IMG/VR virus record: IMGVR_UViG_3300032323_002558
Coordinates: 1 to 33,409 of that record
Strand: one strand, 5' to 3'
Length of the DNA stretch: 33,409 nucleotides
Source: a virus
This document shows, piece after piece, positions 11,298-31,920 of this stretch; position 1 is the stretch's first letter; each line of letters opens with the position of its first letter. The translations under genes were made by a program, and so were the position numbers. The notes under the pieces were generated by a model. It was not told the origin of the DNA. It saw nothing but the letters and a program-made list of their open reading frames with translations, and did not search any database.

Positions 11298-11305
11298 CAT
11301 AAATA
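11298..11305 (+). promoter_or_regulatory. Late promoter element abutting gp16
   Basis: CATAAATA is followed by exactly five bases (CCCGC) and then the gp16 ATG. By T4 geometry (element at -13 to -6) transcription would start on the A of ATG, giving a leaderless message. No Shine-Dalgarno lies between element and ATG. Confidence 0.7.
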
Positions 11306-11310
11306 CCCGC

Positions 11311-11802
11311 ATGACGCGGAAACTAGAAGCACTTTTTGACCTGCCCACTCCAGTGGAAACTGAACCAGAGCCCACGGCTCCCTCCATTGAAGAAACTCGT
11401 ACCCAGTTGGCAGCTATTGACTCCACCATAGACAAAATAGACGCTGCACTGCCTGCTGTGCGTGGCCTTGATGCCAGCGACACAGAAATGGACGATTTGG
11501 CACAACTAGCACAAGACAGCTACAAAGATCTCATGGACCTGGGCATGCAGGTTGACAGTCGTTTTGCCAGCGAAATATTTTCAGTGGCATCCAACATGCT
11601 GGGGCATGCCATCACCGCCAAAACAGCCAAACTCAACAAAAAACTCAAGATGATTGATCTGCAAATGAAGAAGATCAAACTGGATCGAGAAGTGCCTGAG
11701 GAACAAACCCCCATGCAAACCGGCGAGGGCATGGTGTTAAACCGCAATGATTTGCTGGAACGACTGCTAAAAGGCAAAGACCAAAATGCAGCAAAAGAAT
11801 AA
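11311..11802 (+). CDS. gp16: Terminase small subunit gp16
   Basis: gp16 is the DNA-recognition and regulatory subunit of the packaging motor and stimulates gp17. The 163-residue length matches T4 gp16 (164). The layout also matches: an acidic, Pro-rich start (ETEPEPTAPSIEETR), a long central helical pair (roughly residues 75-130, including FASEIFSVASNMLGHAITAK and KLKMIDLQMKKIKLD), then a short tail with MVLNRNDLLERLLKG. It lies directly after gp4 rather than next to gp17, which is more than 9 kb downstream. A late promoter element ends five bases before its ATG. Confidence 0.72.
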   Translation: MTRKLEALFDLPTPVETEPEPTAPSIEETRTQLAAIDSTIDKIDAALPAVRGLDASDTEMDDLAQLAQDSYKDLMDLGMQVDSRFASEIFSVASNMLGHAITAKTAKLNKKLKMIDLQMKKIKLDREVPEEQTPMQTGEGMVLNRNDLLERLLKGKDQNAAKE

Positions 11803-11805
11803 ATA
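11799..11805 (+). promoter_or_regulatory. Late promoter element before the 11823 gene
   Basis: ATAAATA overlaps the TAA stop of gp16 (11800-11802). It lies 17 bases before the next ATG. There is only a weak purine-rich stretch (TAGGACA) in the leader. Confidence 0.5.
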
Positions 11806-11822
11806 TACGATAGGACACTGAC

Positions 11823-12431
11823 ATGAAACCATTTGCAAAATACCTGGCCGAAAGTGAACGTACATACAACTATCGCATCAAGATAGTTGGCGATGTGCCC
11901 ACAGGCTTTATCAAAGATCTTGAGTCAAAGATGTCGCAGTTTGATGTGGTCAAAATGGGTTCGCCCAAGACTGCACCTGTGCGAAAAAACATTCCAGACT
12001 TTCCTGCCTTTCCCAATCAGCCCATGACCATTGTGGATGTGGAGTTTCGATATCCTGCAATTGAACCACAGATCAAACAGTTGGCACAGTTGCTGGGCCT
12101 GGATCCCAATCGCATTGTGATGAACACAGATGCGTACGAACAAAGTCTCGACGACGAGAACAAAAAGATTGTGGACCAAAACAAAGACCTGTTGGATACT
12201 CCTGAATACCCCAAAGACGATGCACAACAACGTGCATTGAAAAAGGACTACGCAACTGGTCCGTACGACCATGCTGTGCTGAAAAATGCATATCGTAGCA
12301 AGTTCACTATTGCTGGCAAAAAGACTCCTCCAGCCGAGACCACAAATGAGTTGCCACAGGGCACAACCAGCCCTATGACCAACATCAAGCGTAAACCCAA
12401 GCCAGCAACTGGCGCAAACCCAAGAGGATAA
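11823..12431 (+). CDS. Probable head-internal protein with capsid-targeting-like N-terminus
   Basis: The 202-residue product begins MKPFAKYLAE followed by Ser. This resembles the T4 capsid-targeting sequence of internal proteins (MKTYQEFIAE, then Ala), which the gp21 prohead protease removes after a [L/I]xE site. Residues 15-95 (YRIKIVGDVP ... TIVDVEFRYP ... LLGLDPNRIVM) look like a compact alternating strand-helix domain with a ferredoxin-like order. The C-terminal half is charged and Pro-rich (residues 105-202) and probably disordered. It sits between gp16 and a large Lys-rich head-type protein. Virion location and cleavage are inferred; homologues in aquatic T4-like phages are, as far as I remember, unassigned. 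Confidence 0.65.
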   Translation: MKPFAKYLAESERTYNYRIKIVGDVPTGFIKDLESKMSQFDVVKMGSPKTAPVRKNIPDFPAFPNQPMTIVDVEFRYPAIEPQIKQLAQLLGLDPNRIVMNTDAYEQSLDDENKKIVDQNKDLLDTPEYPKDDAQQRALKKDYATGPYDHAVLKNAYRSKFTIAGKKTPPAETTNELPQGTTSPMTNIKRKPKPATGANPRG

Positions 12432-12435
12432 TACA

Positions 12436-14319
12436 ATGACATTTTTTTACAACCTAAACAAAAAACTCGACGCCATTCGCGATTTGCCCAGTACCACACA
12501 CGGACAACTCAATGAGCGTGACATGAGCCGTGCTGCCAAGGGCTATGAGAAGTATGGCAAAGAAGGCATGGAGGCGTTGGCCAAGGCCGGACGTGAAGGC
12601 AAAGCATTGGACCCTGTTCGCAAAAAGTACGACAAGTACGATGAGAGCGTAGAAGAAGGTCTAGGCGACATGGCTCGCAAGGTTGGCGGTGCTGTTAAGA
12701 AAGTTGCTGGCAAAGCACTTGATAAAGTAGGCCATGGCAGTGATGCTGACATGATTCGTGATCTACAAAAGAAAATGGGCATGCCACAAACCGGTATGAA
12801 GCCAGGCGACGAACCCAATCCCAAGCAAATCAAAGAAAAGATGAGTGCAGCCAAGGCCAAGAGCTTTGCTGCTCTTGCTGAGCCCAAAGACAAAATCACT
12901 TTTGCCGACAAGATTGCTGGTGCCAAAAAAGAAGTTGACGAAATGCTAGGTGACGTTGCTGCCGAAGCAATGAAGAACGCTCTAGGTGGCGGCAAAAAAG
13001 TTGTTGCTGACGAAGCAGAAGACAACAGCCCGTTCACCGCACACAAGCGTCCCCGTATTGAACAACCCAAAGTTGGCAGTGTTGAGCGAGGTCACAAACA
13101 CGATATTGAGCATACAGCCACAGGTCGCAAGGTAACTCGCAGAGTTGATCCGAGTGGTATCAGTGTTGGTGCCGACGATGACAAACCAGCAGACGGCGAA
13201 AAGCGTGGTCGTGGACGTCCAAAAGGTCCTGCCAAGGCACCCGAGCGTGTGACTGGCGGTGCTACCAAGCACAAAGGTGGCCGCAAAACCAATGAAGGCG
13301 AAAACGAAAGCGACGAAATCAAACAGGCCATGGCCATGTTGAAGAAAGCTGGCTACACAGTAGAAAAGTCTGCTGAACAAGTTGACGAAAAAGCAGTAAG
13401 CAAAAAGCAACAGCGTTTCATGGGCATGGTCCACGCTGCACAAAAAGGTGAAAAGCCTGCGTCTAAAGAAGTTGCCAAAGTAGCCAAAGGCATGGGCAAG
13501 AAAGACGCTGAAGACTTTGCTGCTACCAAGCACAAAGGTCTGCCTGAAAAGAAAAAGTCTGACGACGCTCCCAAGAAGAAAAAAGAAAAAACTGAAGAAG
13601 CCGGCGGCACAGGAACACCTACTGCATCCAGCGGTTTTGGTTTTGGCAAAGGCATCTATGACAGCATGAATCGTGAACTCGAAAACATGATCGCTGAAAG
13701 CATGGCTCGTCTTGACGAAAGCATGAGCATCAATATGAGCATGAACAATGATGAGCACGGCGGTCCCAGCAAGAGTCTCACAGTCACTGCCACAGACGAT
13801 GATGCAATGAAGTTGAGTCAACTGTTGAAGAGTGCAGGACTAGGCGGTGGCGATGAAGGCTACGGCGGCAGCGGATACAAGTCAGCTTGTGGTTGCGGAA
13901 CTCCCGACTGCTCATGTGGCGAAGAGAAAATGGATGAAGTGTCCATGAATCAGCCAGACTATCCAACAGAAACAGAAACCTCTGACGATGCATTGCAATA
14001 TGCAGGTGGCCTCAACAAGCCCAAGTCAACTGGTCAAAGCACAGTGCCTGTGTTGGCCAGCCAAGACGATCGTCAACACACATATGCTGAAGCCGAAGAA
14101 GATGCTATCAAACGCATGATGGAAATGGCCGGTATCAAAACTGAAGCCAAAAAAGTTGAAGAAGACGATGTTGAAGAAGGCAACAAGTTCACTGGCAATC
14201 TAGCCAAGGCTCGTGCTGCTGGCAAAAAAGAAGCTGACCTAGATGGCGACGGCGACATGGAAAAAGTTCAAGAAAGCATTTTTGATCTTACCAATCAATG
14301 GAAAGCATACAAAGGATAA
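12436..14319 (+). CDS. Large charged head-internal protein (DUF3008-like block, AT-hook, Cys cluster)
   Basis: A 627-residue Lys/Glu/Asp/Ala-rich protein, largely low-complexity and likely disordered between modules. Visible modules are an AT-hook-like RGRGRPKGPAK (257-267), a block at about 323-373 matching DUF3008 (KKQQRFMGMVHAAQKG, later FAATKHKGLPEKK), an ENMIAESMARLDES stretch (416-429), a CGCGTPDCSC cluster (485-494), and a C-terminus with DLDGDGDMEKVQES (601-614), close to an EF-hand or dockerin loop. Possible gp21-type sites ([L/I]xE) occur at LAE 147-149 and IAE 419-421. AGAGGA lies eight bases before the ATG. The composition and position suggest a DNA-condensing or internal head protein packaged with the genome; a scaffold role is possible. 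Function is inferred. Confidence 0.65.
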   Translation: MTFFYNLNKKLDAIRDLPSTTHGQLNERDMSRAAKGYEKYGKEGMEALAKAGREGKALDPVRKKYDKYDESVEEGLGDMARKVGGAVKKVAGKALDKVGHGSDADMIRDLQKKMGMPQTGMKPGDEPNPKQIKEKMSAAKAKSFAALAEPKDKITFADKIAGAKKEVDEMLGDVAAEAMKNALGGGKKVVADEAEDNSPFTAHKRPRIEQPKVGSVERGHKHDIEHTATGRKVTRRVDPSGISVGADDDKPADGEKRGRGRPKGPAKAPERVTGGATKHKGGRKTNEGENESDEIKQAMAMLKKAGYTVEKSAEQVDEKAVSKKQQRFMGMVHAAQKGEKPASKEVAKVAKGMGKKDAEDFAATKHKGLPEKKKSDDAPKKKKEKTEEAGGTGTPTASSGFGFGKGIYDSMNRELENMIAESMARLDESMSINMSMNNDEHGGPSKSLTVTATDDDAMKLSQLLKSAGLGGGDEGYGGSGYKSACGCGTPDCSCGEEKMDEVSMNQPDYPTETETSDDALQYAGGLNKPKSTGQSTVPVLASQDDRQHTYAEAEEDAIKRMMEMAGIKTEAKKVEEDDVEEGNKFTGNLAKARAAGKKEADLDGDGDMEKVQESIFDLTNQWKAYKG

Positions 14320-14323
14320 TATC

Positions 14324-18048: not shown

Positions 18049-19089
18049 GTGACATACTATAACTTCTTTGAAGGTCAACTAATACTGCGTAAACATCCCT
18101 GGGATCCTAGCACAGTATTGCCCAAAGATCATATTATTTTGGGTAACACACCGTTCAACGGATGGCCAGACTGGGAAACTTTTGTAACAGCTTGCCATTC
18201 ACTAGCCAAACAAATTTCTCCACCAAATTGGGTGTTTATTGATGCTACCTGGGATCCAGTACTAGCATCGAATCATACACTTACGCAATACATACAAGAA
18301 CTCAAAGATATTTTCCCTCGATCCAAAGTTTGCATGCTAAGTGCTAGTGCACAACATTTTTATGACGACCTACCAGGTTGCGTATATTTTCCGTATTTTT
18401 TAACACACCAGAATCACGGCAATTTAAATCACTATCCTAAAACAGGACGTATAGGTTGTTTGAATCGTCGAAATTCTCCTCAAAGAGTGTGGCTTATGCA
18501 TCATCTGTTGGACAAAAAACTCATTGACGCCCAGCGAGATGTTTACAGCATTAGTTTTACCAATCACAGTGACGTAGAAGATAACACTTACAATGATGTA
18601 GATTCACAGCTGGGAATTGACTGGTTTAATCAGGCTCAAAGACAATGGCCAACAAAAATACAAACTCATCCAGATAGTTTCCCCAACGATTATTCAATTG
18701 ATCATCCTGCTTGGCACACTGGTATCGTTATCATCACAGAAACAGAACCCATGCCGTGTGTTATTATTACAGAAAAAACAGCCAAAGGCATACTGAGCAA
18801 AAGTTGTTTTTCTGTGTACATGGGTGAAGTTGGATATAGAGTATTGGAAGATTTGGGATTTCAACCTAGATTCTTTCCTGAGCATGCTGAAAAGTTCAAC
18901 ATTGATCCCTTGATCAATATCTGTCAGACTATCGCTACTGAACAGCAAGCCTTGGAATATCGAAACTTGCATCTTGACAAGATCAATCACAATTTTGAAT
19001 GGTTCGCGTACAAACAAGGTGAAATACAACAAAGGCCTTGGTGGCCAAAATATCAATCAAAACTTCTCGCAGCATTTGATATGTTGTAA
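18049..19089 (+). CDS. Glycosyltransferase-like protein (TEKTAK type), copy 1
   Basis: A 346-residue protein related to the minus-strand gene at 25566-26885. Both share a basic segment where the first C-terminal domain begins (GCLNRRNSPQRVWLMHHLL here, near 134-152) and the block ITEKTAKGILSKSCFSVYMG (about 239-258) followed by YRVLEDLGFQPRFF. This pattern, with TEKT..K near a predicted nucleotide-sugar site and a final L..LGF element, is typical of GT-B fold enzymes related to GT10 fucosyltransferases in bacteria and phages. Sugar donor and acceptor are unknown. The start is GTG 18049 without a Shine-Dalgarno; the next in-frame Met is deep inside. The gene is AT-rich compared with gp18, which suggests acquisition. 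Confidence 0.5.
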   Translation: MTYYNFFEGQLILRKHPWDPSTVLPKDHIILGNTPFNGWPDWETFVTACHSLAKQISPPNWVFIDATWDPVLASNHTLTQYIQELKDIFPRSKVCMLSASAQHFYDDLPGCVYFPYFLTHQNHGNLNHYPKTGRIGCLNRRNSPQRVWLMHHLLDKKLIDAQRDVYSISFTNHSDVEDNTYNDVDSQLGIDWFNQAQRQWPTKIQTHPDSFPNDYSIDHPAWHTGIVIITETEPMPCVIITEKTAKGILSKSCFSVYMGEVGYRVLEDLGFQPRFFPEHAEKFNIDPLINICQTIATEQQALEYRNLHLDKINHNFEWFAYKQGEIQQRPWWPKYQSKLLAAFDML

Positions 19090-19092
19090 ATA
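19086..19092 (+). promoter_or_regulatory. Late promoter element abutting the radical SAM gene
   Basis: GTAAATA contains the TAA stop of the preceding gene and is followed by exactly five bases (ACTGC) and the next ATG at 19098. The spacing predicts a leaderless transcript, and no Shine-Dalgarno is present. Confidence 0.6.
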
Positions 19093-19097
19093 ACTGC

Positions 19098-20237
19098 ATG
19101 TCCAATTTCTTTTGCGCAGCCCCTTGGCGTGGGTTGCATATCAATCCCCGTGGCGACGTCAAAACCTGCTGTGCAGGCGATCCCAACATGCTGGGCAATC
19201 TCAATACTCACAGTATCACACAGATTCTCAACAGTGATTTAATGGCACAGGTTCGCAGCGAAATTGCACAAGGGCGACCGCACCAATACTGCTCCAACTG
19301 TGTCAAGGCCGAACGCTTTGGTGCAGACTCTGAACGTAAGTGGCACAATGATACCAATCCTGGCTTTGACTATGCCACAGCTGGAGATCAATATCACTAT
19401 CCTGTGATTGTGGATGTACGCTGGAATACCACCTGTAACCTCAGTTGCAACTATTGCAGTGAATGGGCCAGTTCCAAATGGTCAGCACTCAAAGGTATTC
19501 CTTTCAAGTCTGGTAGTCGTCCTTATTATGAACAAGTGTGTGATTTTCTTGAACAACACAAAGAACACATACGAGATGTTGCTCTAGTAGGCGGCGAACC
19601 TTTGTTGCTGCCTGAAAACGAACGACTGCTTGATGTCATCCCTGAAGACTGTGTTGTAACTCTAATCACCAACATGAACGTGGATCTCAGCAAGAACAAG
19701 ATTTTTCGCAAACTAGCACAAAGAAAGAAAGTTGGTTGGAGCATGAGCTTTGACAACATTGGCGCACAGTTTGAATATGTGCGCTATGGCGGCGACTGGA
19801 ACATGCTGACAGAGAATTTGGCCATAGTCAAAGAGTTGTTTGGTCGTGGACAATGGGGCGGGATTCACGCGGTATACAACATCTACAATGCCACACGTAT
19901 CACAGAGTTCCGTGAATGGGCAGCAAGTCAAGGTGTCAGTGTGTTGTGGCAAAATCTGTTTCAACCTGACTACCTGGATCCGTTTTTGCACGGTCCAGAA
20001 GTTGCTGCTACTGCCGCAGCCGAGATTGAACGTTTTTATGCCACAGGATTGGCTACACCTGCAGAACAACAGTTCTTTGACAATGCACTAGCTACCTATC
20101 GCGGTGTTACGCAAGAACGTCCTGGCATCACTAGCAAGTTTCGTACACACATCGCAGAAATTGAAACTCAATACCACAAGGACCAATCTGGACAGTTTGT
20201 GAAGTTGTGGCCTGAACTAGCACATTTGATATCATGA
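19098..20237 (+). CDS. Radical SAM protein with N-terminal SPASM/twitch-like Cys set, copy 1
   Basis: Radical SAM enzymes use a 4Fe-4S cluster and S-adenosylmethionine to start radical chemistry. The cluster motif is CNLSCNYC (Cys113, Cys117, Cys120). Unusually placed before it is a Cys-rich block: CAAPWRGLHINPRGD, CC (24-25), GNLNTHSITQILNS and CSNC (65-68), the auxiliary-cluster signature known from SPASM/twitch proteins. ALVGGEPLLLPEN gives the GGE motif that binds the SAM amino group. The product is 379 residues. The substrate is unknown; relatives modify peptides or small molecules. It stops within the start of an SGNH gene (ATGA), suggesting joint function. A second enzyme of this architecture is at 28059-29357. 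Confidence 0.82.
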   Translation: MSNFFCAAPWRGLHINPRGDVKTCCAGDPNMLGNLNTHSITQILNSDLMAQVRSEIAQGRPHQYCSNCVKAERFGADSERKWHNDTNPGFDYATAGDQYHYPVIVDVRWNTTCNLSCNYCSEWASSKWSALKGIPFKSGSRPYYEQVCDFLEQHKEHIRDVALVGGEPLLLPENERLLDVIPEDCVVTLITNMNVDLSKNKIFRKLAQRKKVGWSMSFDNIGAQFEYVRYGGDWNMLTENLAIVKELFGRGQWGGIHAVYNIYNATRITEFREWAASQGVSVLWQNLFQPDYLDPFLHGPEVAATAAAEIERFYATGLATPAEQQFFDNALATYRGVTQERPGITSKFRTHIAEIETQYHKDQSGQFVKLWPELAHLIS

Positions 20238-20971: not shown

Positions 20972-22554
20972 GTATCAAACCCACCCTAGACACGGTGCTG
21001 GTAAAATCGCCGCACCGTAGAGAAACATATACACAGGAGCAGTTGACTGAGTTTGCTCGTTGCGCTGATCCTGTAAATGGTCCCATGTATTTCATGGACA
21101 ATTTTTTCTATATTCAGCATCCTACACGGGGCAAGATGCTGTATCAACCTTTTGAGTATCAAAAGCGACTGATTGCAAACTATCACAACAGCAGATTCTC
21201 GATTTCCTTGATGCCTCGACAAACTGGTAAGTCAACGTCGGCAGCAGGTTATTTGTTGTGGTATGCCATGTTTGTGCCTGACGCTACTATCTTGGTTGCT
21301 GCACACAAGTATCTAGGTGCACAAGAGATTATGCAACGTATAAGATATGCTTATGAGTTGTGTCCCAATCACATTAGAGCAGGTGCTACCAGCTACAACA
21401 AAGGCAGTCTAGAGTTTGACAACGGGTCACGTATCGTATCGCAAACCACTACTGAAAACACTGGTCGAGGTATGTCGATTACCTTGTTGTATCTAGACGA
21501 ATTTGCGTTTGTGCGACCCACTATTGCCAAAGAATTTTGGACTTCTATTACACCCACACTGAGCACAGGTGGTAAAGCCATTATTACTTCAACACCAAAC
21601 TCAGACGAAGATCAGTTTGCCCTGATCTGGAAAGGTGCCAACAAAACGGAAGACGAGTACGGTAACCTGCGTCCAAATGGCCTAGGTGTCAACGGATTCC
21701 GTGCGTTCCGTGCGTTTTGGCGTGAACATCCAGACCGCGATGAGAAGTGGGCCGACGAACAGCGAGCACAGCTAGGCGAAGAACGATTCCGTCGAGAAAT
21801 GGACTGTGAGTTTGTTATCAACGACGAGACTTTGATTTCTCCACTGAAACTACTGGATCTAGAAGGAGTAGAACCTGTCAGCAAAACTGGACAAGTTCGT
21901 TGGTATCGTCCCATACAGGCAGACAAGATATACATTGTGGCTTTAGACCCTAGCCTGGGCACAGGCGGCGATCCTGCTGCTATACAAGTATTTGAAGCAG
22001 ACACCACAGAACAAGTAGCTGAATGGCGTCACAACAAAACAGATGTGCCCACGCAGATCAAGATCATGGTGGACATTGTGAAAGAACTGCATGCTGTGGT
22101 CAAGGACGACAAAAAGATCTACTATAGTGTGGAAAACAACACACTAGGAGAAGCAGCCCTGATCAGTATCAACGAATACGGCGAAGAAAACATACCAGGC
22201 TACTTTCTCAGCGACAATTCAGTACAGGGTCAACACGGCCGTCGGACTCGCAAGGGATTCACAACCACCAACAAAAGCAAGATTGTGGCCTGCAACAAGT
22301 TCAAAATCCTAGTAGAATCTGGGCGTATGAAACTGTACAGCAAGCCCTTGATCAGTGAACTCAAAAACTTTGTGGCCTTGGGCAATAGCTATGCAGCCAA
22401 ACCTGGCGAAACGGACGACTTGGTGATGAGTACACTGTTGGCTACTCGCATGCTGATGCTGCTGCAAACCTATCACCAGGAACTGGATTCACATCTCAAA
22501 GATCATGGGGACAACATCATTGAACCCATGCCTTTCATTAGCATGATGCGATAA
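20968..22554 (+). CDS. gp17: Terminase large subunit gp17
   Basis: gp17 is the ATPase-nuclease motor that packages DNA into the prohead. The N-terminal ATPase domain has Walker A MPRQTGKST (82-90), Walker B ITLLYLDE (171-178) with Glu178, and the coupling motif ITSTPN (206-211). The C-terminal RNase H-fold nuclease shows Asp327 in VALDPSLGTGGD, Glu389 in YSVENNTLGEAAL and the Asp483/484 pair in ETDDLV. The length of 528 residues is slightly below T4 gp17 (610). The start overlaps the SGNH stop (ATGA). gp16 lies far upstream at 11311, so the two terminase genes are separated. Confidence 0.95.
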   Translation: MSIKPTLDTVLVKSPHRRETYTQEQLTEFARCADPVNGPMYFMDNFFYIQHPTRGKMLYQPFEYQKRLIANYHNSRFSISLMPRQTGKSTSAAGYLLWYAMFVPDATILVAAHKYLGAQEIMQRIRYAYELCPNHIRAGATSYNKGSLEFDNGSRIVSQTTTENTGRGMSITLLYLDEFAFVRPTIAKEFWTSITPTLSTGGKAIITSTPNSDEDQFALIWKGANKTEDEYGNLRPNGLGVNGFRAFRAFWREHPDRDEKWADEQRAQLGEERFRREMDCEFVINDETLISPLKLLDLEGVEPVSKTGQVRWYRPIQADKIYIVALDPSLGTGGDPAAIQVFEADTTEQVAEWRHNKTDVPTQIKIMVDIVKELHAVVKDDKKIYYSVENNTLGEAALISINEYGEENIPGYFLSDNSVQGQHGRRTRKGFTTTNKSKIVACNKFKILVESGRMKLYSKPLISELKNFVALGNSYAAKPGETDDLVMSTLLATRMLMLLQTYHQELDSHLKDHGDNIIEPMPFISMMR

Positions 22555-22557
22555 ATA
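22550..22557 (+). promoter_or_regulatory. Late promoter element after gp17
   Basis: GATAAATA includes the TAA stop of gp17. Seven bases follow before the ATG at 22565, so the predicted leader is about two bases. No Shine-Dalgarno is possible in that space. Confidence 0.65.
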
Positions 22558-22564
22558 ATGTACT

Positions 22565-24418
22565 ATGGCCCAAGAACACAACATTGAACAAAAACTACAT
22601 GATCTGCTGATCAGCCGAGATTTTCACCCTGAACTCACGGGCAAAGACGGACGCCCCAGTGATGCTGCTGAAGCCAAAACATTTGCGTTTGACTACATAG
22701 CCCCTTCGGGTAAGAACTACGGCACCATGGTGATTGTGCTGGCCAATGACAACGAAATGAAAGTCATGTACGGCGACAATCTGGGCAAAACCATGGAAGG
22801 CTCAGACAAGCAAGCTTTCTTTGATTTTGTTCAAGCCCTGCATCAGTTTGCTGTGCGTAACTTTTGGACATTTTCTTCTGAAGATCTCAGCAAGCTCAAG
22901 TATGTGCAGGCCGGAATGGCCGCTATCAAAGAAGGCCTGTTTGAAGGCTACTATGGCAGTCGTCGTGTGAGCTACACAGGCGAGGCCACTGAAGCTCGTA
23001 TGATGATTCGTCACAACCGTGTGCTGGGCGAAAATGACGCCAGATTCCGCTACATCGAAAGCATCTATATTGAGACTGCTGATCAAGAACGTTTCAAACT
23101 GCCGTTCACAAACATGACTGGTGCTCGTGCCATGCTGGAGCATGTGCGACAAGGCGGTCGCCCCTATGATGTTCGTGGCACACACATTTCAGAAATGGTA
23201 AGTGAACTCAAGGTCCTGAACCGTTTCAATCGAGCCAGTGCTGGACGTGTCATGGAAGGCGTCACACAGACCATTGTGGAGCAGGCACAGGCCTACTATC
23301 AGTCTCTGCGTGAAAGTCTCAAACGTCTGGGTCACAGTCGCGGCTACAATACCTACTTTGAATCCTGGCACCCAGCAGAAATCGCTGAACACGAAAGCCT
23401 GGTAGAAGACATCAAAACCATGTTTGTGCAACAAACATTAGACACCAGAATCGAAGCAGCATTGCCCCTGCTGGCTCGTATACAACAACAAGGAAATGCT
23501 ATGAAAGAAGCTGAAATTTTTGAAAGCTGGATCAACAATCTGGCTGAAGGCACCTGGAACTTGCCAGAAACTCCCGAGCAAGTCAACAAGATCAAAGAGC
23601 TCATGAGCCAAGAACTCATTGTGGGCCCTGACGGCGTCAATGCTACTGAACAACTGTACGACTTGGTAGGTGATGATGAATTGTTTGATCGTATTGAGGC
23701 ACTGGCCGCTCGTGATCCACGAGCAAACGCCTGGAACGACGCAGACGTTATGGAACGTCTTCGTGAGTTAGGTATTGAAACTGATGGTATTGCTCCTACT
23801 GGAGCCGAGGGCGATGCAGCACCAGTTGATCCTGCTGCTGCACCTGCTGCACCTGTGCCTCAGCAACCTGTGGCCGAAGAAATCAATGCTATGCGTAAAG
23901 CGGCCGGATTGCCAGTGGTAGAAGGTCGTATGCTCGACGAAAGCGGCGAAACATTGAGTCATATCATGGATCGTTTCAAACACGAAATTGATCAATTTGA
24001 AAAAGGCGGCGAACTAGACAACGATTTGTACTATGCCTTGTTTGACTACTACAGTGACCACGGTGAAATCCCCTACGGCATTGCCAAGGGTCGTGATGGA
24101 GATCCGTTTGAATGGGTTACAGATAGACTGGATCAAGAACTAGGTACAGGCAATCATGCTCCTCGACTGCCAGAAGCAGATGCACTCAACACATTTGAAG
24201 TCATGGGTGCACTGACTGGTCACGGAGAGCCCACCACAGAAGGCAGTTGCAACATGACTTCTGAAGGCGAGTACTGCCCCGAACACGGTTTAGCAGAATG
24301 TGGCGGTGGCATGTATGAAATGGGCACAGTGGCTGGATCAGTGGCTCCTGTAATTGGAGAAGGCCAAGACAGTGATGCACTGTTGGCTAGAATAAAAAGT
24401 CTGGCCCTGATAAAGTGA
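22565..24418 (+). CDS. Large virion-type protein of T4-like aquatic phages
   Basis: A 617-residue acidic protein. The N-terminal 200 residues form a folded domain (KTFAFDYIAPSGKNYGTMVI, AFFDFVQALHQFAVRNFW, MAAIKEGLFEGYYGSRRVSY). A middle helical part begins near EHVRQGGRPYDVRGTHISEM. The C-terminal third is modular: a Pro/Ala linker (about 420-435, DAAPVDPAAAPAAPVPQQ), the INAMRKAAGLPVVEG motif, and a Cys motif CNMTSEGEYCPEHGLAECGG (about 559-578) that could bind zinc. Similar proteins are called structural in marine T4-like phages, as I remember. Lys-Ala-Gly motifs are shared with the 627-residue and 119-residue proteins upstream. It is preceded by a late element with almost no leader. The precise role is unknown. 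Confidence 0.7.
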   Translation: MAQEHNIEQKLHDLLISRDFHPELTGKDGRPSDAAEAKTFAFDYIAPSGKNYGTMVIVLANDNEMKVMYGDNLGKTMEGSDKQAFFDFVQALHQFAVRNFWTFSSEDLSKLKYVQAGMAAIKEGLFEGYYGSRRVSYTGEATEARMMIRHNRVLGENDARFRYIESIYIETADQERFKLPFTNMTGARAMLEHVRQGGRPYDVRGTHISEMVSELKVLNRFNRASAGRVMEGVTQTIVEQAQAYYQSLRESLKRLGHSRGYNTYFESWHPAEIAEHESLVEDIKTMFVQQTLDTRIEAALPLLARIQQQGNAMKEAEIFESWINNLAEGTWNLPETPEQVNKIKELMSQELIVGPDGVNATEQLYDLVGDDELFDRIEALAARDPRANAWNDADVMERLRELGIETDGIAPTGAEGDAAPVDPAAAPAAPVPQQPVAEEINAMRKAAGLPVVEGRMLDESGETLSHIMDRFKHEIDQFEKGGELDNDLYYALFDYYSDHGEIPYGIAKGRDGDPFEWVTDRLDQELGTGNHAPRLPEADALNTFEVMGALTGHGEPTTEGSCNMTSEGEYCPEHGLAECGGGMYEMGTVAGSVAPVIGEGQDSDALLARIKSLALIK

Positions 24419-24426
24419 TTTAAATA
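24419..24426 (+). promoter_or_regulatory. Late promoter element abutting the 24432 gene
   Basis: TTTAAATA is followed by exactly five bases (TGGGC) and ATG 24432. The same spacing before five other genes supports 24432 over the ATG at 24426, which would lie inside the promoter. Confidence 0.55.
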
Positions 24427-24431
24427 TGGGC

Positions 24432-25013
24432 ATGCTAAACTTTAGTAATGCCCAACAAATCCTTCCCACAGTCTGGCGATTGCCAGACTTTTTCTTGGAC
24501 TACGAATCTGTGCATCGCAGTTATCGCAGTGCAGAACAACCATGGAACACACAGTATCCCAACAGACTGTTGACTCCATGGGCTACCAACCCCTTGTTGG
24601 AAGCAGCCCTACAACAAGCACCAGACCAGATTCAAGAACTCACTGGACATGCGGTACAGTCACAGGTAGCCTATGCTAGTTTAGATCTAAGTGGTAGTCA
24701 AATCATGATGCACAGACTGCATCCAGATATCAGTTGTTTCGTACAGGTCTACATGGGACAAGATCCTGCACCTGAACTCAGCAGTGTGTTCTGCAACAAC
24801 CTGACAGTGAATGCTGATCATCCCACAGACTATGCTGACATTTCTGAATTTAACCCTGCTGACTTGTTGAAAGTACGTTATCGTCCCAACGAAGCCTGGC
24901 TCATGATCAATCAACCCAGAACATTCTTTGGCACAGCATTGCCAGTGGCACCCAACTCAGTTCGTGAAACTGTTAACTTACACTTTGGCCCGAAATTGCC
25001 AGCAGGCACTTAA
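24432..25013 (+). CDS. 2OG-Fe(II) oxygenase-like protein lacking the distal His
   Basis: The 193-residue product aligns with the opposing gene at 24978-25517. Both share LDLSG (85-89 here), then an HxD motif (His97-Pro98-Asp99 in RLHPDIS), then VQVYM/L, then a C-terminal strand with Asn and a conserved Arg (Arg178). In the opposing gene this strand has His-His at the distal iron-ligand position; here the equivalent is RTFFGTA with Phe, so the usual HxD...H triad looks incomplete. It may be inactive, use another ligand, or have a structural role. The start 24432 is chosen from the promoter spacing; 24426 adds MG. The 3' end overlaps the opposing gene by 36 bases. Confidence 0.55.
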   Translation: MLNFSNAQQILPTVWRLPDFFLDYESVHRSYRSAEQPWNTQYPNRLLTPWATNPLLEAALQQAPDQIQELTGHAVQSQVAYASLDLSGSQIMMHRLHPDISCFVQVYMGQDPAPELSSVFCNNLTVNADHPTDYADISEFNPADLLKVRYRPNEAWLMINQPRTFFGTALPVAPNSVRETVNLHFGPKLPAGT

Positions 25014-25517
25014 TCGCGTGCCTGTGATAGTATCAGCGTGATGTTCTTTACGGTCAGTGTTTAGGTTGATGTAGCCTGTGTTGGGCACAAAGTCAAATCG
25101 TGTGCGTGGATTACTGTGAGTGAATTCAGTGCCATGTACATCACCGTGCGTCCACAAGTATACCTGATAAGTCACTGCCAACAGTTCAGCATCATTGTGA
25201 TAAGGACAGTGCCAACCGCTGAGATCCAACCACATCTTGCATTCTGCAGGCATGAGTTCAATGCCAGTGATCTTTTCTAGTGCAGGCATTATTTTGGGAG
25301 CCATAGCCTGCAGTCGTTTTAGCATAAGGGACTCAGGCGTGAGTTGCAGTCGATACTCCAGGCAGTCAGGGTGCCGGTGCCATGAGTCTGTATGATTGAG
25401 ATGCGTGGTGGATAGGTCTTGAAATGTATCAACACCAAAGCAGTTGGTCACGCCCCACAGTCGGTCAGCAACTGGCACAACTTCGCAATCGGTATCGTAG
25501 ATTCTGTGTATAGTCAT
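24978..25517 (-). CDS. 2OG-Fe(II) oxygenase-like protein with intact triad
   Basis: A 179-residue protein with the double-stranded beta-helix oxygenase ligand set: YHNDA (His107, Asp109), a distal His at 159 or 160 in RKEHHADT, and Arg168 in TGTRLSACWQF for 2-oxoglutarate. Before it comes MWLDLSGWHCPYHND, paralleled in the facing paralogue. Such enzymes hydroxylate proteins, nucleobases or small molecules; many phages carry them and the substrate here is unknown. The minus strand reads GTAAATA, five bases, ATG, predicting a leaderless late transcript. It is the last gene of a minus-strand pair with the gene at 25566-26885. Confidence 0.65.
   Translation of the reverse strand: MTIHRIYDTDCEVVPVADRLWGVTNCFGVDTFQDLSTTHLNHTDSWHRHPDCLEYRLQLTPESLMLKRLQAMAPKIMPALEKITGIELMPAECKMWLDLSGWHCPYHNDAELLAVTYQVYLWTHGDVHGTEFTHSNPRTRFDFVPNTGYINLNTDRKEHHADTITGTRLSACWQFRAKV
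25003..25024. repeat. Inverted repeat in the overlap of convergent genes
   Basis: CAGGCAC (25003-25009) and GTGCCTG (25018-25024) are perfect inverted repeats around an eight-base loop that holds the TAA stop of the plus-strand gene. No T-run follows on either strand, so terminator function is uncertain. Confidence 0.4.
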
Positions 25518-25522
25518 ACTGG

Positions 25523-25529
25523 TATTTAC
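25523..25529 (-). promoter_or_regulatory. Late promoter element abutting the 25517 gene
   Basis: The minus strand reads GTAAATA, then CCAGT, then the ATG at 25517. The five-base spacing is identical to that at gp16 and the 19098 and 31156 genes. Confidence 0.6.
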
Positions 25530-25559: not shown

Positions 25560-25575
25560 TTTGCTCTAGAGCAAA
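25560..25575. repeat. Perfect 16-base palindrome at a stop codon
   Basis: TTTGCTCTAGAGCAAA is its own reverse complement and contains the TAG stop of the minus-strand gene ending at 25566. It could form a small hairpin in RNA or be a protein-binding site. No T-run follows on the minus strand. Confidence 0.45.
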
Positions 25576-26885
25576 GGTTTGTGAATAAATTGTTGAATAT
25601 CTGTGAGTTGTTGCTTTGACAAGTTCAAGATATGTTGATGATTGTGTTCTAACACTTCTTCAAAGTGTGCATACACGGATCTTGGATTTTCTGTATAGTA
25701 CAGCCTGTGTATCTGCTGCCATGCCATGGCATAGCGTTTGGCATCGTCGGGCTCGTTGTCATAGCTTTCGTCAATGATGTCTCCGTGAAATGTTTTGAAA
25801 CCCAATTCTTTCAATCGCTTAAGAAGCCCAGCACAATTAAACATGATAAAAATTCGTTTGGCAAACAAGCACTTGGCTGTTTTTTCAGTGAGAAATGTAT
25901 TGCTGCTGCCAATGTCAGCAGTTTCGCAGACTACACTGTACCAACTGCTTTGATACACTCCCCAGGGCACAATCACGCTCATTGGGGTGTTGTCTCCAGG
26001 CAAGTTATAGCCAGGACGATACACCAAGTTTACACTGTATTGTTCTCTAGGGCCTAGATTCTGCGTGTCTTGTTTGAATTTAGATACCACTGGTTCTTCT
26101 AGATCTGCTAGAGCAGCAGAACTGTAGTGTTGAACAATGCCATGACGGAGATGTCCTTCAGGATCAATATCAGCAATGAGATTTTGGTCGTCCCAGGGTC
26201 TTGGCTGCAAATTCACAATGCAATGATCAATAAAATCTGACTCAAGTAATCTGTACATCAAATAAGTTCTAGCAGTCTTTACAGTGCCCATCAAGATATC
26301 AAACATGTATTTTCGAAAAGGCACAGTCTTTGAACTGATGTCTCGGTAAGTGTTGGCTTGGACCACATAAGAAAAGAAACTCATTTGATCTGTAAAAAAT
26401 CGATCTGGTGGTGGCGAAGTGTAGGTCTGACTACCTGAAAACACACATTTGATGCGATCACTGTGTACCGCGTTACATATATCTCCATACACTCTAGGCC
26501 ACCAATTGTTCATGGCTTCTGTGGTATGAGTAACAACGATATCAGCCCAGTTCAATGCAAGATTGGATATCAAATTGGGGTGGTCTTCAATAGGACCCGA
26601 GTCCGCAATAGTCCCTCCACTGAGAGGTCGATTGAAGTGTTCAAAGAACAACAGAGCCACTTTCTTTCGACGGTCCTGATGCCCAAACTCGCCGCCACCA
26701 GGGGGTCTCACACCTCGATAAATTTCAGCCCGAGGGAACCATTCGATACCTTGAATCAAGGACGAGTTAAACTCCCACCACGAATGTGGGTCCCACACAA
26801 ACCATTCAGTCTGATCTCTCATGTCAGGATTGCTGGCCCAGACCTTGCGATGGTTGTCCCACACATAAAAAGCATTGTTTTCCAT
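25566..26885 (-). CDS. Glycosyltransferase-like protein (TEKTAK type), copy 2
   Basis: A 439-residue protein sharing the C-terminal pattern of the 18049 gene: a SWYSVVCETADIG segment, then FLTEKTAKCLFAKRIFIMFN (331-350), then LKRLKELGFKTFHGDIIDES. The order ET...TEK..K...hhhhhh...LGFKTF is typical of GT-B fold, GT10-like glycosyltransferases. The first 180 residues include a Trp-rich N-terminus (WDNHRKVWASN, WFVWDPHSWWEFN) and DIVVTHTTEAMNNW. No membrane segment is evident. On the minus strand AATAAGTA precedes the ATG by five bases, a one-mismatch version of the late element. It diverges from gp32, and its role could be host or virion surface glycosylation. Confidence 0.5.
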   Translation of the reverse strand: MENNAFYVWDNHRKVWASNPDMRDQTEWFVWDPHSWWEFNSSLIQGIEWFPRAEIYRGVRPPGGGEFGHQDRRKKVALLFFEHFNRPLSGGTIADSGPIEDHPNLISNLALNWADIVVTHTTEAMNNWWPRVYGDICNAVHSDRIKCVFSGSQTYTSPPPDRFFTDQMSFFSYVVQANTYRDISSKTVPFRKYMFDILMGTVKTARTYLMYRLLESDFIDHCIVNLQPRPWDDQNLIADIDPEGHLRHGIVQHYSSAALADLEEPVVSKFKQDTQNLGPREQYSVNLVYRPGYNLPGDNTPMSVIVPWGVYQSSWYSVVCETADIGSSNTFLTEKTAKCLFAKRIFIMFNCAGLLKRLKELGFKTFHGDIIDESYDNEPDDAKRYAMAWQQIHRLYYTENPRSVYAHFEEVLEHNHQHILNLSKQQLTDIQQFIHKPLL

Positions 26886-26890
26886 TGCAG

Positions 26891-26898
26891 TACTTATT
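26891..26898 (-). promoter_or_regulatory. Weak late promoter element abutting the 26885 gene
   Basis: The minus strand reads AATAAGTA, five bases (CTGCA), ATG. One base differs from TAAATA, but the spacing matches the other leaderless candidates. Confidence 0.4.
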
Positions 26899-26922: not shown

Positions 26923-26951
26923 TTGCGATGCTAAATAAAGCAGTATACAAT
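26923..26951 (+). promoter_or_regulatory. Possible sigma70-type promoter for gp32
   Basis: TTGCGA (26923-26928), 17 bases, then TACAAT (26946-26951). The -35 match is four of six and the -10 five of six. Within the spacer is CTAAATA (26931-26937), a late-type element, so gp32 may be read both early and late. Confidence 0.45.
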
Positions 26952-28018: not shown

Positions 28019-28023
28019 AAATC

Positions 28024-28053: not shown

Positions 28054-28058
28054 GTTCA

Positions 28059-29357
28059 ATGAATCAACAATTAAAAACATTTAAAATACAAAGGTTGGAC
28101 CCTATAAGTCCAACCTTTTGTGCTGCAAAATGGTTGACAACAGACATATATCTACACACTGGTCTAACCAGTAGCTGCCACTATACGGTTCCAAACAAAA
28201 TAGATTTATCTGAAATTGAAGAGAATCCTCTAGCGGCACACAACACCAAACAAAAAATTTTGCAAAGGCAGCAAATGTTGCTTGGCGAGCGGCCATCTGA
28301 ATGTTCGAACTGTTGGAATATTGAAAACGCCGATGACACAATAATCAGCGACAGAGTCTACTACAGCGAACACTACAAGAGACATGATTTTACCAAATTT
28401 GATCTCAGTGACAAAGTTGTGCCGGAACACGTTACTGTCATGCTTGATAATTATTGCAATTTTGTGTGCAGTTACTGTGATCCAACACAGAGTACAAGCT
28501 GGGCTACAGATTTAAAAATCAATGGACCGTATAAAACAGTCACTGACTCAAAGAAAACCTATCTGAGATTAGGATCTAAAGACCGACTCGATGAACAACA
28601 ACAAAATCTGTTGTTTGATCATGTAGTAGAGATGATAACAAAAAATCTGGATACTGTTAGAACATTAAATCTGCTTGGTGGCGAGCCTACCATTAATCCA
28701 AAATTTTGGAAATTAATGGAGAGACTAGAGGGTCATGACACTAGTAATTTAATTCTTCAAATTGTTACAAATTTTAGCAATTGGAAGATGATAGAAAAAT
28801 TTCTATCACATCGCCAACGATTTAAAAAAATCAAGTTGTCAGTCAGCATTGATGGAGTTGACAAAAAAGCTGAGTTTACTCGTTATGGTCTAAAGTGGCA
28901 AGAGTTCAACAACAACGTGCAACGTGTGCTAACAGATTATCCTGATGTTAATTTGTATTTTTTAGGAACATTGAATATTTTAGCACTAGACGGGCTGGTT
29001 GATTATTGCAATTGGTATTTGGAAATTGATCAACTCTGGCCTAACAGGCTCAGTTCAAAAATTAGTGTTGTAAGATGGCCAAATTTTCAATCAATAAACA
29101 TATTGCCCGGCTACTTGAAAACACATTACAAGCAGCAACTTCAAACTTGGATTCAACAACACGGCGATCAATTAACCGGCAAAATGTTGGCGGTTAACCT
29201 TGAGCAAATTATTGCGTTACTTGAATCAACCGATGCAACACATTTAGAACAAACTGATTTTAAAAATTTTGTTTTAGAATATAGCAAAAGACACAAATTG
29301 AATGTACAATCTACATTTAGCAACGAATTATCTTGTTGGATACACACAAAGGATTAA
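28059..29357 (+). CDS. Radical SAM protein with N-terminal twitch-like Cys set, copy 2
   Basis: The cluster motif is CNFVCSYC (Cys133, Cys137, Cys140). Before it are FCAAKWLTTDIYLHTG, Cys40, an NPLAAHNTKQKILQRQQMLL helix and ECSNCW (Cys82, Cys85), the permuted auxiliary-cluster signature also found in the 19098 gene. NLLGGEPTINPKFW supplies the GGE motif. The 432-residue gene is distinctly AT-rich (many AAA, AAT, ATT and TTA codons) compared with gp32 and uvsX on either side, a sign of insertion between two replication genes. It starts 11 bases after the gp32 terminator stem without a Shine-Dalgarno and ends two bases before uvsX. The substrate is unknown; peptide or metabolite modification is typical of relatives. 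Confidence 0.82.
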   Translation: MNQQLKTFKIQRLDPISPTFCAAKWLTTDIYLHTGLTSSCHYTVPNKIDLSEIEENPLAAHNTKQKILQRQQMLLGERPSECSNCWNIENADDTIISDRVYYSEHYKRHDFTKFDLSDKVVPEHVTVMLDNYCNFVCSYCDPTQSTSWATDLKINGPYKTVTDSKKTYLRLGSKDRLDEQQQNLLFDHVVEMITKNLDTVRTLNLLGGEPTINPKFWKLMERLEGHDTSNLILQIVTNFSNWKMIEKFLSHRQRFKKIKLSVSIDGVDKKAEFTRYGLKWQEFNNNVQRVLTDYPDVNLYFLGTLNILALDGLVDYCNWYLEIDQLWPNRLSSKISVVRWPNFQSINILPGYLKTHYKQQLQTWIQQHGDQLTGKMLAVNLEQIIALLESTDATHLEQTDFKNFVLEYSKRHKLNVQSTFSNELSCWIHTKD

Positions 29358-29359
29358 AC

Positions 29360-30418
29360 ATGGGAAAACCATTTGACATTTCAAAATTCCGCAAGGAAAT
29401 CACTAAGAGCATTGACGGCCTTAGTATTGGATTTAACGATCCCACAGACTGGATCAGCACAGGCAACTATGCCTTGAACTATCTTATCTCCGGTGACTTC
29501 AACCGTGGCATTCCACTAGGCAAGGTCACAGTATTCGCTGGCGATTCAGGAGCAGGCAAAAGCTACATTTGCAGCGGCAACATTGTGAAACACGCACAGG
29601 AACAAGGTATCTTTGTGGTGTTGATTGACTCAGAAAACGCCTTGGACGAAGACTGGCTCAAAGCACTTGGCGTTGACACTTCGGACAGCAAGTTGCTGAA
29701 GTTGAGTATGGCCATGATTGACGACGTGGCCAAGACCATCTCCACATTCATGAGCGACTACAAGGCTTTGGCCGACGGTGAGCGTCCCAAAGTCCTGTTT
29801 GTGATCGACAGCTTGGGCATGTTGTTGACTCCCACAGACGTCAACCAGTTTGAATCTGGCGAAATGAAAGGTGACTTGGGTCGCAAACCCAAAGCACTCA
29901 CAGCATTGGTGCGTAACTGTGTCAACATGTTTGGTAGCTACAACGTGGGCTTGGTTTGTACCAACCACACATACGCAAGTCAAGACATGTTTGATCCCGA
30001 TGACAAGATCTCAGGCGGTCAAGGTTTTATCTACGCATCCAGTATCGTGGTTGCCATGAAAAAGATGAAGCTCAAAGAAGACGAAGACGGCAACAAAGTT
30101 TCCGAAGTCAACGGTATCCGTGCAGGCTGCAAGGTCATGAAAACACGCTATGCCAAGCCCTTTGAAGGTGTGCAGGTCAAGATTCCCTATACCACAGGTA
30201 TGAGCCCATACTCGGGGCTCACCGACCTGATTGAGAAAAAGAATCTTTTGAAGAAAGAAGGCAACAGCTTGGTGTTTACTACATCAGAAGGTGAAATCAT
30301 CAAGAAGTTCCGCAAGGCTTGGGAACGCAACGATGACGGTTGTCTTGACACAGTGATGAAAGACTTTGCCAACCAAAAAGCCGAGGTAAGTACCGCTGAA
30401 GGAGATGATGAACAATGA
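29360..30418 (+). CDS. uvsX: UvsX recombinase (RecA-like)
   Basis: UvsX forms filaments on single-stranded DNA and drives strand exchange and recombination-dependent replication with UvsY and gp32. Walker A is GDSGAGKS (61-68) and Walker B KVLFVIDSLG (144-153), with the catalytic Glu in VLIDSENALD (87-96). LVCTNHTYAS and the ISGGQGF loop match RecA/UvsX DNA-binding loops. The C-terminus is acidic (AEGDDEQ). The product is 352 residues (T4 UvsX 391). The start is ATG 29360 with GGAT at 29351-29354; an upstream ATG at 29333 overlaps the radical SAM gene and is rejected. It is coupled to the next gene by ATGA. Confidence 0.95.
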   Translation: MGKPFDISKFRKEITKSIDGLSIGFNDPTDWISTGNYALNYLISGDFNRGIPLGKVTVFAGDSGAGKSYICSGNIVKHAQEQGIFVVLIDSENALDEDWLKALGVDTSDSKLLKLSMAMIDDVAKTISTFMSDYKALADGERPKVLFVIDSLGMLLTPTDVNQFESGEMKGDLGRKPKALTALVRNCVNMFGSYNVGLVCTNHTYASQDMFDPDDKISGGQGFIYASSIVVAMKKMKLKEDEDGNKVSEVNGIRAGCKVMKTRYAKPFEGVQVKIPYTTGMSPYSGLTDLIEKKNLLKKEGNSLVFTTSEGEIIKKFRKAWERNDDGCLDTVMKDFANQKAEVSTAEGDDEQ

Positions 30419-30678
30419 CGTCACAAGTAGCAAGCGAAATCTGGAGTGAACTCAAGCGATATGTCAACACAGTGGATCGTGGCGAAGCCGCTGAAACACT
30501 GGTAGCTGTGTTGATCGATCACGACGAAGATGTAGAAGATATTCGTGATGCTTTCAAACACGACAGCGATGTCAAACGAGCACTCACAGCGTACCTCGAC
30601 AATGATAAAAGTTATGATGACGAGGACGAAGAAATTGACGAAGACGAAGACAACTACAACCAAGAAGACGACTACTGA
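30415..30678 (+). CDS. Small acidic protein between uvsX and uvsY
   Basis: The 87-residue product has a helical N-terminal part (SEIWSELKRYVNTVDRGEAA, then ETLVAVLIDHDEDVEDIRDAF) and a strongly acidic tail (about 68-87, DDEDEEIDEDED followed by NYNQEDDY). It overlaps uvsX by four bases and uvsY by one base (TGATG). Its place suggests a recombination or replication accessory, and the acidic tail could mimic DNA or bind gp32, UvsX or UvsY. That is inference; similar small acidic ORFs occur next to uvsX in aquatic T4-like phages as far as I remember. Confidence 0.75.
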   Translation: MTSQVASEIWSELKRYVNTVDRGEAAETLVAVLIDHDEDVEDIRDAFKHDSDVKRALTAYLDNDKSYDDEDEEIDEDEDNYNQEDDY

Positions 30679-31130
30679 TGTGGTATAGCCGTATCACTGC
30701 AAACTTGGGAGAAATCCCAAGTTTCATTGCACACTACGAAAACGAACTGCTAGCAGCCAAACAAGATTGCAGAGTATCAGGTGTGATCGAACACCGCATC
30801 AAAGAGTTACCGGGAATCACTGAGCAGAGGTTTAACCAGCTGCAAGAGATTGAAGCTGTGTTGAACTATCTCAACATCCAGCTACGCAAGATTCGTCGCA
30901 AACATTTTCAAAAGTATCTGGAAGCCTATGCCCGTGCACTGACCAGCAGAGATGCTGAAAAGTATGTGGACGGTGAAGACGAAGTCATTGACTACGAAAC
31001 CATCATCAACGAAGTTGCGTACCTACGTAATCGTTGGCTAGGCATCATGAAAGGCCTAGACACCAAACAGTGGCAAATGGGACACATTGTTCGTTTACGC
31101 AGTGCTGGCATGGAAGATATTCAGGTCTGA
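30678..31130 (+). CDS. uvsY: UvsY recombination mediator
   Basis: UvsY loads UvsX onto gp32-coated DNA. The 150-residue product is helical and carries the signature LNIQLRKIRRKHFQKYLEAY (about 70-89), RALTSRDAEKYVDGEDEVID (about 87-106), then INEVAYLRNRWLGIMKGL and the C-terminal LRSAGMEDIQV. These are hallmarks of the family in T4 and cyanophages. T4 UvsY is 137 residues. The start overlaps the stop of the acidic gene (TGATG), so uvsX, the acidic gene and uvsY form one operon. Confidence 0.93.
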   Translation: MWYSRITANLGEIPSFIAHYENELLAAKQDCRVSGVIEHRIKELPGITEQRFNQLQEIEAVLNYLNIQLRKIRRKHFQKYLEAYARALTSRDAEKYVDGEDEVIDYETIINEVAYLRNRWLGIMKGLDTKQWQMGHIVRLRSAGMEDIQV

Positions 31131-31143
31131 CCACAAACCTGCT

Positions 31144-31150
31144 GTAAATA
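31144..31150 (+). promoter_or_regulatory. Late promoter element abutting the 31156 gene
   Basis: GTAAATA, five bases (TCCAT), ATG 31156. It would start a separate late transcript for the sugar-modification genes downstream of uvsY, with no leader. Confidence 0.6.
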
Positions 31151-31155
31151 TCCAT

Positions 31156-31920
31156 ATGAAAATTGTACTTGTCACTGGGGGATTTGACCCTATCCATTCT
31201 GGGCATATTGCCTATTTCAAAGCTGCCCGCACACTAGGCGACATGTTGATTGTGGGACTCAATTCGGATGCATGGTTGACTCGCAAAAAAGGCCGACCGT
31301 TTATGCCCTGGAATGAACGGTTGTGTGTGATCAACAATCTTGCCATGGTGGACGAAGTTTATACCTTTGACGACGATGACGGCAGTGCCTGTCATTTTAT
31401 ACAACAGGTACGAGCACATTATCCAGATGCAGAGTTGGTGTTTGCCAACGGTGGTGATAGAACAGCCAACAACATTCCCGAAATGAGTGTGCAAGACCCA
31501 CGTCTGGAGTTTGTGTTTGGAGTTGGTGGCGAAGACAAAAAGAACAGTTCGAGCTGGATTCTTGAAGGCTGGAAAAAGCCCAAGACAGATCGTACCTGGG
31601 GATACTATCGTGTGTTACATGAAGTAGGGTCGCATGTCAAACTCAAAGAACTCACAGTGAATCCCAAAACGTGTCTCAGCATGCAACGACACGAACACCG
31701 AGCAGAGTTTTGGTTTGTAGCCGAAGGCGAAGCCACGGTGTACACTGTGGATCCGCACAGCACTGATTATGACTTAATGGCCAGCCCTGCACGTCATCAA
31801 CATACCTGGATACAACTCAATGAATGGCATCAACTGTGCAACGAAACTGACGAACCTCTGCGTCTGATCGAAATACAATACGGCGACAATTGTGTGGAAG
31901 AGGATATTGAGCGTCGATGA
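31156..31920 (+). CDS. Cytidylyltransferase-like domain fused to a sugar-isomerase-type cupin
   Basis: The 254-residue product has two domains. Residues 1-140 are a nucleotidyltransferase of the cytidylyltransferase/RfaE-C type: VTGGFDPIHSGHIAY (6-20) with the HxGH motif at 14-17, PWNERLCVINNL (51-62) and NSSSWIL (130-136) in place of the family ISTSS-like element. Residues 145-254 match the cupin of mannose-6-phosphate isomerase type II or ManC C-termini: RTWGYYRVL, VKLKELTVNP, LSMQRHEHRAEFWFVAEGEA (174-193) with metal ligands His179, His181 and Glu184. It probably makes or converts an activated sugar for the glycosyltransferase that follows. The start at 31156 fits the promoter; an in-frame ATG at 31087 would overlap uvsY. 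It overlaps the next gene by four bases. Confidence 0.8.
   Translation: MKIVLVTGGFDPIHSGHIAYFKAARTLGDMLIVGLNSDAWLTRKKGRPFMPWNERLCVINNLAMVDEVYTFDDDDGSACHFIQQVRAHYPDAELVFANGGDRTANNIPEMSVQDPRLEFVFGVGGEDKKNSSSWILEGWKKPKTDRTWGYYRVLHEVGSHVKLKELTVNPKTCLSMQRHEHRAEFWFVAEGEATVYTVDPHSTDYDLMASPARHQHTWIQLNEWHQLCNETDEPLRLIEIQYGDNCVEEDIERR

Follow-up and report, generated by a model that had tools for sequence, protein, structure and literature searches.

The virus record IMGVR_UViG_3300032323_002558 is treated here as a single window of 33.4 kb, meaning the whole stretch of DNA analyzed, and it belongs to a phage of the T4 superfamily, as judged from its sheath protein (1110 amino acids), terminase, gp32, UvsX and UvsY. 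Several genes of this window begin a few bases after the hexamer TAAATA, the core of the T4-type late promoter, which would be read by a sigma factor of the gp55 family. These sites are very likely T4-type late promoters fused to start codons, which would give rise to leaderless late mRNAs beside leadered ones. An original prediction made from the window had proposed this arrangement with a spacing of exactly five bases, and the evidence comes mainly from the distance between hexamer and start codon in the relatives of this phage.

Spacing between TAAATA and start codon

The relatives comprise 231 loci carrying relatives of the terminase, gp32 or sheath genes, of which 2.03 Mb are left once shared 31-mers are masked. 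The gap is defined as the number of bases between each TAAATA and the next ATG of a called gene. Gaps of 4, 5, 6 and 7 bases are found 84, 93, 13 and 80 times, while gaps of 8 to 15 bases are almost empty (2, 1, 1, 0, 0, 4, 1 and 2). A second wave spans gaps 16-30, with 7, 32, 18, 15, 8, 13, 13, 10, 12 and 16 sites at gaps 16 to 25. No other hexamer occurs as often as TAAATA at gaps 4, 5 and 7, and permuted versions of TAAATA are mostly flat, apart from AAATAT and ATAAAT, which peak through their overlap with the motif, and a small echo of AATATA. Since the loci were picked via three genes, gene families are a safer count than sites; families with the motif number 11, 23, 7 and 17 at gaps 4, 5, 6 and 7, and 0-2 per position at gaps 8-15. 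Both the spacing and the base rules described below recur in two further contig sets, B and C.

A distance histogram in full genomes and relatives had been named beforehand as the check on the prediction, and in it the sites cluster at 4, 5 and 7 and become scarce from 8 to 15, before a later wave of genes bearing a Shine-Dalgarno (SD) sequence. The peak at five bases is thus real, but the spacing is not exactly five: gaps 4 and 7 are used as well, and gap 6 is nearly avoided. Within the window itself, TAAATA ranks first among hexamers at gap 5, where it precedes five in-frame gene ATGs and the next best hexamer two, and matches with one mismatch amount to 14, against a maximum of 13 and a mean of 7.95 in dinucleotide shuffles. 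The core is strict. Its clearest variant is TAAGTA, which the prediction had rightly taken as genuine; it occurs 16 times at gap 5 and 6 times at gap 4, versus 0-5 times at any other gap listed. A scan of the 20 bases upstream of TAAATA for a -35 element found no strong motif.

Probable promoter sites in the window

The sites of the window, with the number of relatives that share them where counted, are as follows.

11300..11313, plus strand: TAAATA, five bases, ATG; start of 11311-11802 (phrog_16202, unknown function); 33 relatives at gap 4-5, N-terminus MTRKL conserved
19087..19100, plus strand: TAAATA, five bases, ATG; start of 19098-20237 (radical SAM/SPASM); 31 relatives at gap 4-7, N-terminus MSNFY/F conserved
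22552..22567, plus strand: TAAATA, seven bases, ATG (TAAATA ATGT ACT ATG); start of 22565-24418, a virion structural protein after the large terminase; 48 relatives at gap 7
24421..24434, plus strand: TAAATA, five bases, ATG; start of 24432-25013; 4 relatives, N-terminus MLNFS conserved
25515..25528, minus strand: TAAATA, five bases, ATG; start of 24978-25517; relatives at gap 5 (5) and gap 7 (3)
26883..26896, minus strand: TAAGTA, five bases, ATG; start of 25566-26885; TAAGTA kept in most relatives of the gene
31145..31158, plus strand: TAAATA, five bases, ATG; start of 31156-31920 (nucleotidyltransferase and cupin); 22 relatives at gap 5
641..657, minus strand: TAAATA, eight bases, ATG; start of a virion structural protein (phrog_11591) running off the left end; borderline spacing
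1851..1878, plus strand: leadered late promoter, gap 19; gp13-like adaptor; hairpin GGGGAC-GGA-GTCCCC across the expected transcription start (+1)
5279..5311, plus strand: leadered late promoter, gap 24, leader with AAGGAA; gp18 sheath; family gaps 24-29
8693..8723, plus strand: leadered late promoter, gap 22, leader with GGAG; gp19 tail tube; family gaps 16-24
11800..11825, plus strand: leadered late promoter, gap 17, leader with AGGA; gene 11823-12431; family gaps 17-18

The TAAATA and TAAGTA sites predicted at five bases from an ATG are all exact in position on both strands, and so are the gap of seven (22552, ATG at 22565) and the gap of eight (minus strand, 657, ATG at 643). For the last of these, a protein matching phrog_11591 in the related genome G001 has a gap of five. 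A second ATG in the frame of the 24432 gene, at 24426, shares sequence with the promoter and would precede +1. The presence of leadered genes beside leaderless ones was also correctly anticipated, with gp18 at gap 24 and gp19 at gap 22; TAAATA at 1851, 5279, 8693 and 11800 marks the starts of leadered genes, at gaps 19, 24, 22 and 17. By contrast, the earlier list of sites away from gene starts is incomplete, having overlooked 26932 and 32255 on the plus strand, and two of its gene names are unsupported: the gene at 11311, called gp16, has phrog_16202 as its sole match and none in Pfam, and the label "oxygenase-like" for the gene at 24432 fares likewise. The overlooked TAAATA at 26932-26937 (plus strand) is isolated, about 95 bases before gp32, a family otherwise without the motif near its start.

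Predicted start of the late RNA

Late transcription in T4 is a textbook system in which the promoter element spans -13 to -6 (the coordinates used in the original prediction), so that +1 falls on the sixth base after TAAATA. Among leadered genes the frequency of A is highest at TAAATA+6 (62%, family-weighted), which is the T4 start position by that arithmetic. At gap 5 the same position is the A of the ATG, and a pyrimidine (C or T) directly precedes the ATG in 99% of 93 sites (family-weighted 96%) versus 48% in motif-less genes. This exclusion of purines just before the ATG agrees with the earlier proposal that +1 would lie on its A. At gap 4 the A of the ATG stands at TAAATA+5, and at gap 7 an A occupies TAAATA+5 (71% family-weighted, 84% raw) and is followed by pyrimidines, which suggests a three-base leader, A-Y-Y. 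A gp55 holoenzyme would thus start RNA at the fifth or sixth base after TAAATA, on the A of the ATG at gaps 4 and 5 and three bases before it at gap 7 (A-Y-Y-ATG), and the 5' end of the late RNA is predicted at or next to the ATG. Predicted leaders are therefore of 0 or 3 nucleotides, rarely 1-2, the gap 7 site at 22552-22567 being one example.

Translation signals

An SD (AGGA, GGAG or GAGG) precedes 1% of the genes at gap 4-7 and 82% of those at gap 16-30, where its commonest start position is -11; the background is 34% for genes without TAAATA and 6% inside genes. At gap 4-7, 271 genes start with ATG, 2 with GTG and 4 with TTG. These genes have two of the features of leaderless mRNAs, the lack of an SD and an AUG start codon. 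On mRNAs of this type, leaderless or with a leader of three nucleotides, ribosomes would start on the 5'-terminal AUG without SD pairing, while other late genes of the same genomes (sheath, tube, adaptor) would rely on an SD within a leader, their promoter lying 16-30 bases before the ATG. Because N-termini are conserved among relatives, such as MTRKL at 11311 and MSNFY/F at 19098, the called ATGs are very probably real gene starts.

A further proposal, possible but advanced only tentatively, is that the promoter gates translation. The genes would be translatable only from late-promoter RNA, as read-through RNA lacks both an SD and a 5'-terminal AUG. That leaders have 0 or exactly 3 nucleotides, and rarely 1-2 or 4-10, would follow from the way in which a 5'-terminal codon is seated on the ribosome, and the layout would have been gained or lost several times in the T4 superfamily.

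Gene classes and transcription machinery

The gene after the terminase occurs in two layouts. In the window it has TAAATA seven bases before the ATG, whereas in PA5oct, Phosso, GAP32 and Vibrio 2.275.O the hexamer is followed by 21-30 bases and then the ATG, with an SD in that leader in Phosso, GAP32 and Vibrio 2.275.O. At this gene the promoter is retained and the leader lost relative to the isolates. In G001, the genes with leaderless sites include those for the portal and virion proteins, together with radical SAM, homing endonuclease and nucleotidyltransferase genes; the promoter suggests that the non-virion genes carrying a site are late genes as well.

A gp55 homologue (phrog_234) is found in all five full-size relatives searched (G001, G002, G003, G004 and G008), with E-values of about 1e-24. 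The phage ribosomal protein bS21 was considered as a partner in leaderless translation and rejected, as it occurs in G001-G003, was not found in G004 or G008, and is present in PA5oct, which lacks the pattern. In G001 it is encoded at L246:5205-5429 (G001:85205-85429), directly downstream of a ClpX-like gene; G002 and G003 encode it too.

Several points weigh against fused late promoters and leaderless mRNAs as described. The placement of +1 and of the leader is a prediction from spacing and base composition. Gene starts were assigned mechanically, which is partly offset by the N-termini conserved among relatives. The promoter amounts to the six-base core, as the two 5' bases (TA) of the T4 octamer TATAAATA are not conserved, and gp55 is known from the relatives only, the window being a 33 kb fragment. 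Finally, gp33 (phrog_254) was undetected in the relatives, PA5oct, Phosso and GAP32, and found only in T4 and syn9; this small protein may have diverged beyond the reach of the profile, and since a review of T4 describes the role of its homologues as less obvious (PMC2988020), gp33 does not firmly define this promoter class.

Alternative explanations

TAAATA near the ATG might instead be an A/U-rich, S1-binding element that recruits ribosomes to longer transcripts, and no promoter at all. A/T-rich upstream elements stand in for the SD in some bacteria, and the gap 4-7 class does without one. This explanation is nevertheless decidedly unlikely, since late genes with an SD have the same hexamer too, 16-30 bases before the ATG, a distance that makes a role at the ribosome site impossible. 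Moreover, the motif is carried by structural families and missing at replication genes (2 distant matches in 130 members of the gp32 family, none in 102 of UvsX), most permuted A/T hexamers show no peak, and ribosome recruitment gives no reason for the trough at 8-15 or for the exclusion of purines.

It is very unlikely that the promoter is correctly identified but +1 is variable, or the RNA processed, so that most of the late mRNAs begin upstream and have a short leader. Sequence alone cannot fix +1, and gap 7 already implies a leader of three nucleotides; still, a start fixed at +5/+6 from the hexamer agrees with the spacing, with the 8-15 trough and with the C or T that precedes the ATG at gap 5.

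The TAA of the motif could also be mainly the stop codon of an upstream gene, in an arrangement for stop-and-restart translational coupling. The sites at 19087 (gap 5) and 22552 (gap 7) do double as an upstream stop in the window, and of 1085 TAA stops 110 are followed by ATA, more than by any other triplet. Yet TAA is the upstream stop in only 52 of the 270 sites at gap 4-7, another 91 of the 270 have no same-strand gene end within 120 bases, and TAA followed by other triplets shows no peaks at 4, 5 and 7, and coupling needs no ATA, all of which makes this explanation highly improbable. That the pattern is a chance or compositional artefact of A/T-rich intergenic DNA deserves almost no credence: coincidences of one or two sites do occur, as the two each in T4 and PA5oct illustrate, but shuffles, permuted hexamers, cross-genome controls and the distance histogram rule against it.

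Distribution in whole genomes

The probable fusion of late promoters to start codons is seen genome-wide in full-size relatives. The genomes G001, G002 and G003 (300-332 kb) hold 32, 25 and 27 genes at gap 4-7, versus permuted means of 3.7, 4.9 and 2.4; this control is conservative, because the permuted set contains hexamers that overlap the motif. For these genomes, as for the contig, HTVC008M and G013 counts below, no de-duplication was made across contigs. The prediction of a phage-wide leaderless strategy therefore stands as regards genome-wide use but not exclusivity, as leaderless and leadered late genes are mixed. The isolates behave differently: genes at gap 4-7 number 2 in T4, 1 in syn9, 2 in PA5oct, and 0 in GAP32 (160 kb) and KVP40, all at or below chance, and T4, syn9, PA5oct and KVP40 show an excess at gaps 16-30. 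In the parts read of Phosso, Atu_ph07 and Vibrio 2.275.O there are 1, 0 and 1, respectively.

Environmental contigs fetched via the terminases of PA5oct and Phosso contain 91 and 156 gap-5 sites, and the 578 kb contig G013 has 17 genes at gap 4-6 in 180 kb, where permuted hexamers give almost nothing. On the terminase tree, in which contigs with at least two sites are counted as leaderless, the cultured Pelagibacter phage HTVC008M (NC_020484) carries 11 gap-5 genes, among them those at 6280, 7562, 11972, 19456 and 49760, while its neighbour syn9 has none at gap 5, suggesting that the trait was gained or lost more than once. Campylobacter phage CP81 was raised in a pattern count and dropped, its gene-based count being at chance.

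The terminase of the window is 54% identical to that of Pseudomonas phage PA5oct and 43-52% to those of Phosso, Atu_ph07 and GAP32, and a comparison of the first 12 kb of the window with 50,697 phage records gave no near DNA match. Host inference via the 31156 protein was uninformative, the best matches (50-53%) lying on contigs of marine bacteria, SAR86 among them, that lack the promoter. With a guanine-plus-cytosine content of 43-45% versus 31-34%, the phages considered here are a different set from the bS21-encoding lake phages of PMC9723584.

A hairpin at the gp13-like adaptor gene

The leadered gp13-like gene (1851-1878) has the hairpin GGGGAC-GGA-GTCCCC between its late promoter and its ATG. 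The expected +1 is covered by the 5' arm, and most of the SD is in the loop. Stems of at least 5 bp occur in 11 of 19 members of the gp13-like family (2.2 expected), with eight distinct stems. Read-through RNA is predicted to hide the SD, and late-promoter RNA to free it, as at gene e of T4, whose late RNA lacks the 5' part of an inhibitory hairpin (PMC3014915). This parallel concerns the leadered gp13-like gene, and not the leaderless class.

Significance and comparison with known systems

If this reading holds, a large environmental and mostly uncultured group of T4 relatives reads its virion genes by a leaderless, SD-independent route. The fused-promoter pattern allows sequence-based calling of gene starts and of late genes, and the prediction is testable in a cultured phage, HTVC008M. 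Prediction of middle and late promoters has been reported to fail in pelagimyophages (PMC7029224), a failure that the fusion of promoter and start codon may explain for late promoters. No report of leaderless late mRNAs in T4-type phages was found in the literature searched, whose coverage is partial.

The closest known system is T4 itself, with late promoters read by the sigma factor gp55 at TATAAATA; shared with it are the TAAATA core before structural and other late genes, a gp55 homologue, and an A at +6 when the gene is leadered. In characterized T4 late promoters about one helical turn separates the 8-bp box from the start site downstream (PMC2988020). In the cultured T4 relatives examined here, late promoters mostly stand at a distance from the ATG that leaves room for a leader, and T4, syn9, KVP40, PA5oct and GAP32 have no excess at gap 4-7, whereas in the phages described here a large class lies 4, 5 or 7 bases before the ATG, with no leader.

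Among bacteria, the mapped leaders of Lactococcus cremoris are either under 5 nucleotides or much longer, with none between 4 and 14 (PMC10986495), the same two-peaked distribution of leader lengths as is predicted here. Those are mapped transcripts of host genes, while the present case is a single phage promoter class predicted across late genes. The late promoters of phage phiKZ (TATG, with the G as start; PMC5312081) are likewise short and place the start very near the motif, but they are served by a multisubunit RNA polymerase of the phage, whereas the late promoters fused to start codons imply the host RNA polymerase with a gp55-type sigma factor.

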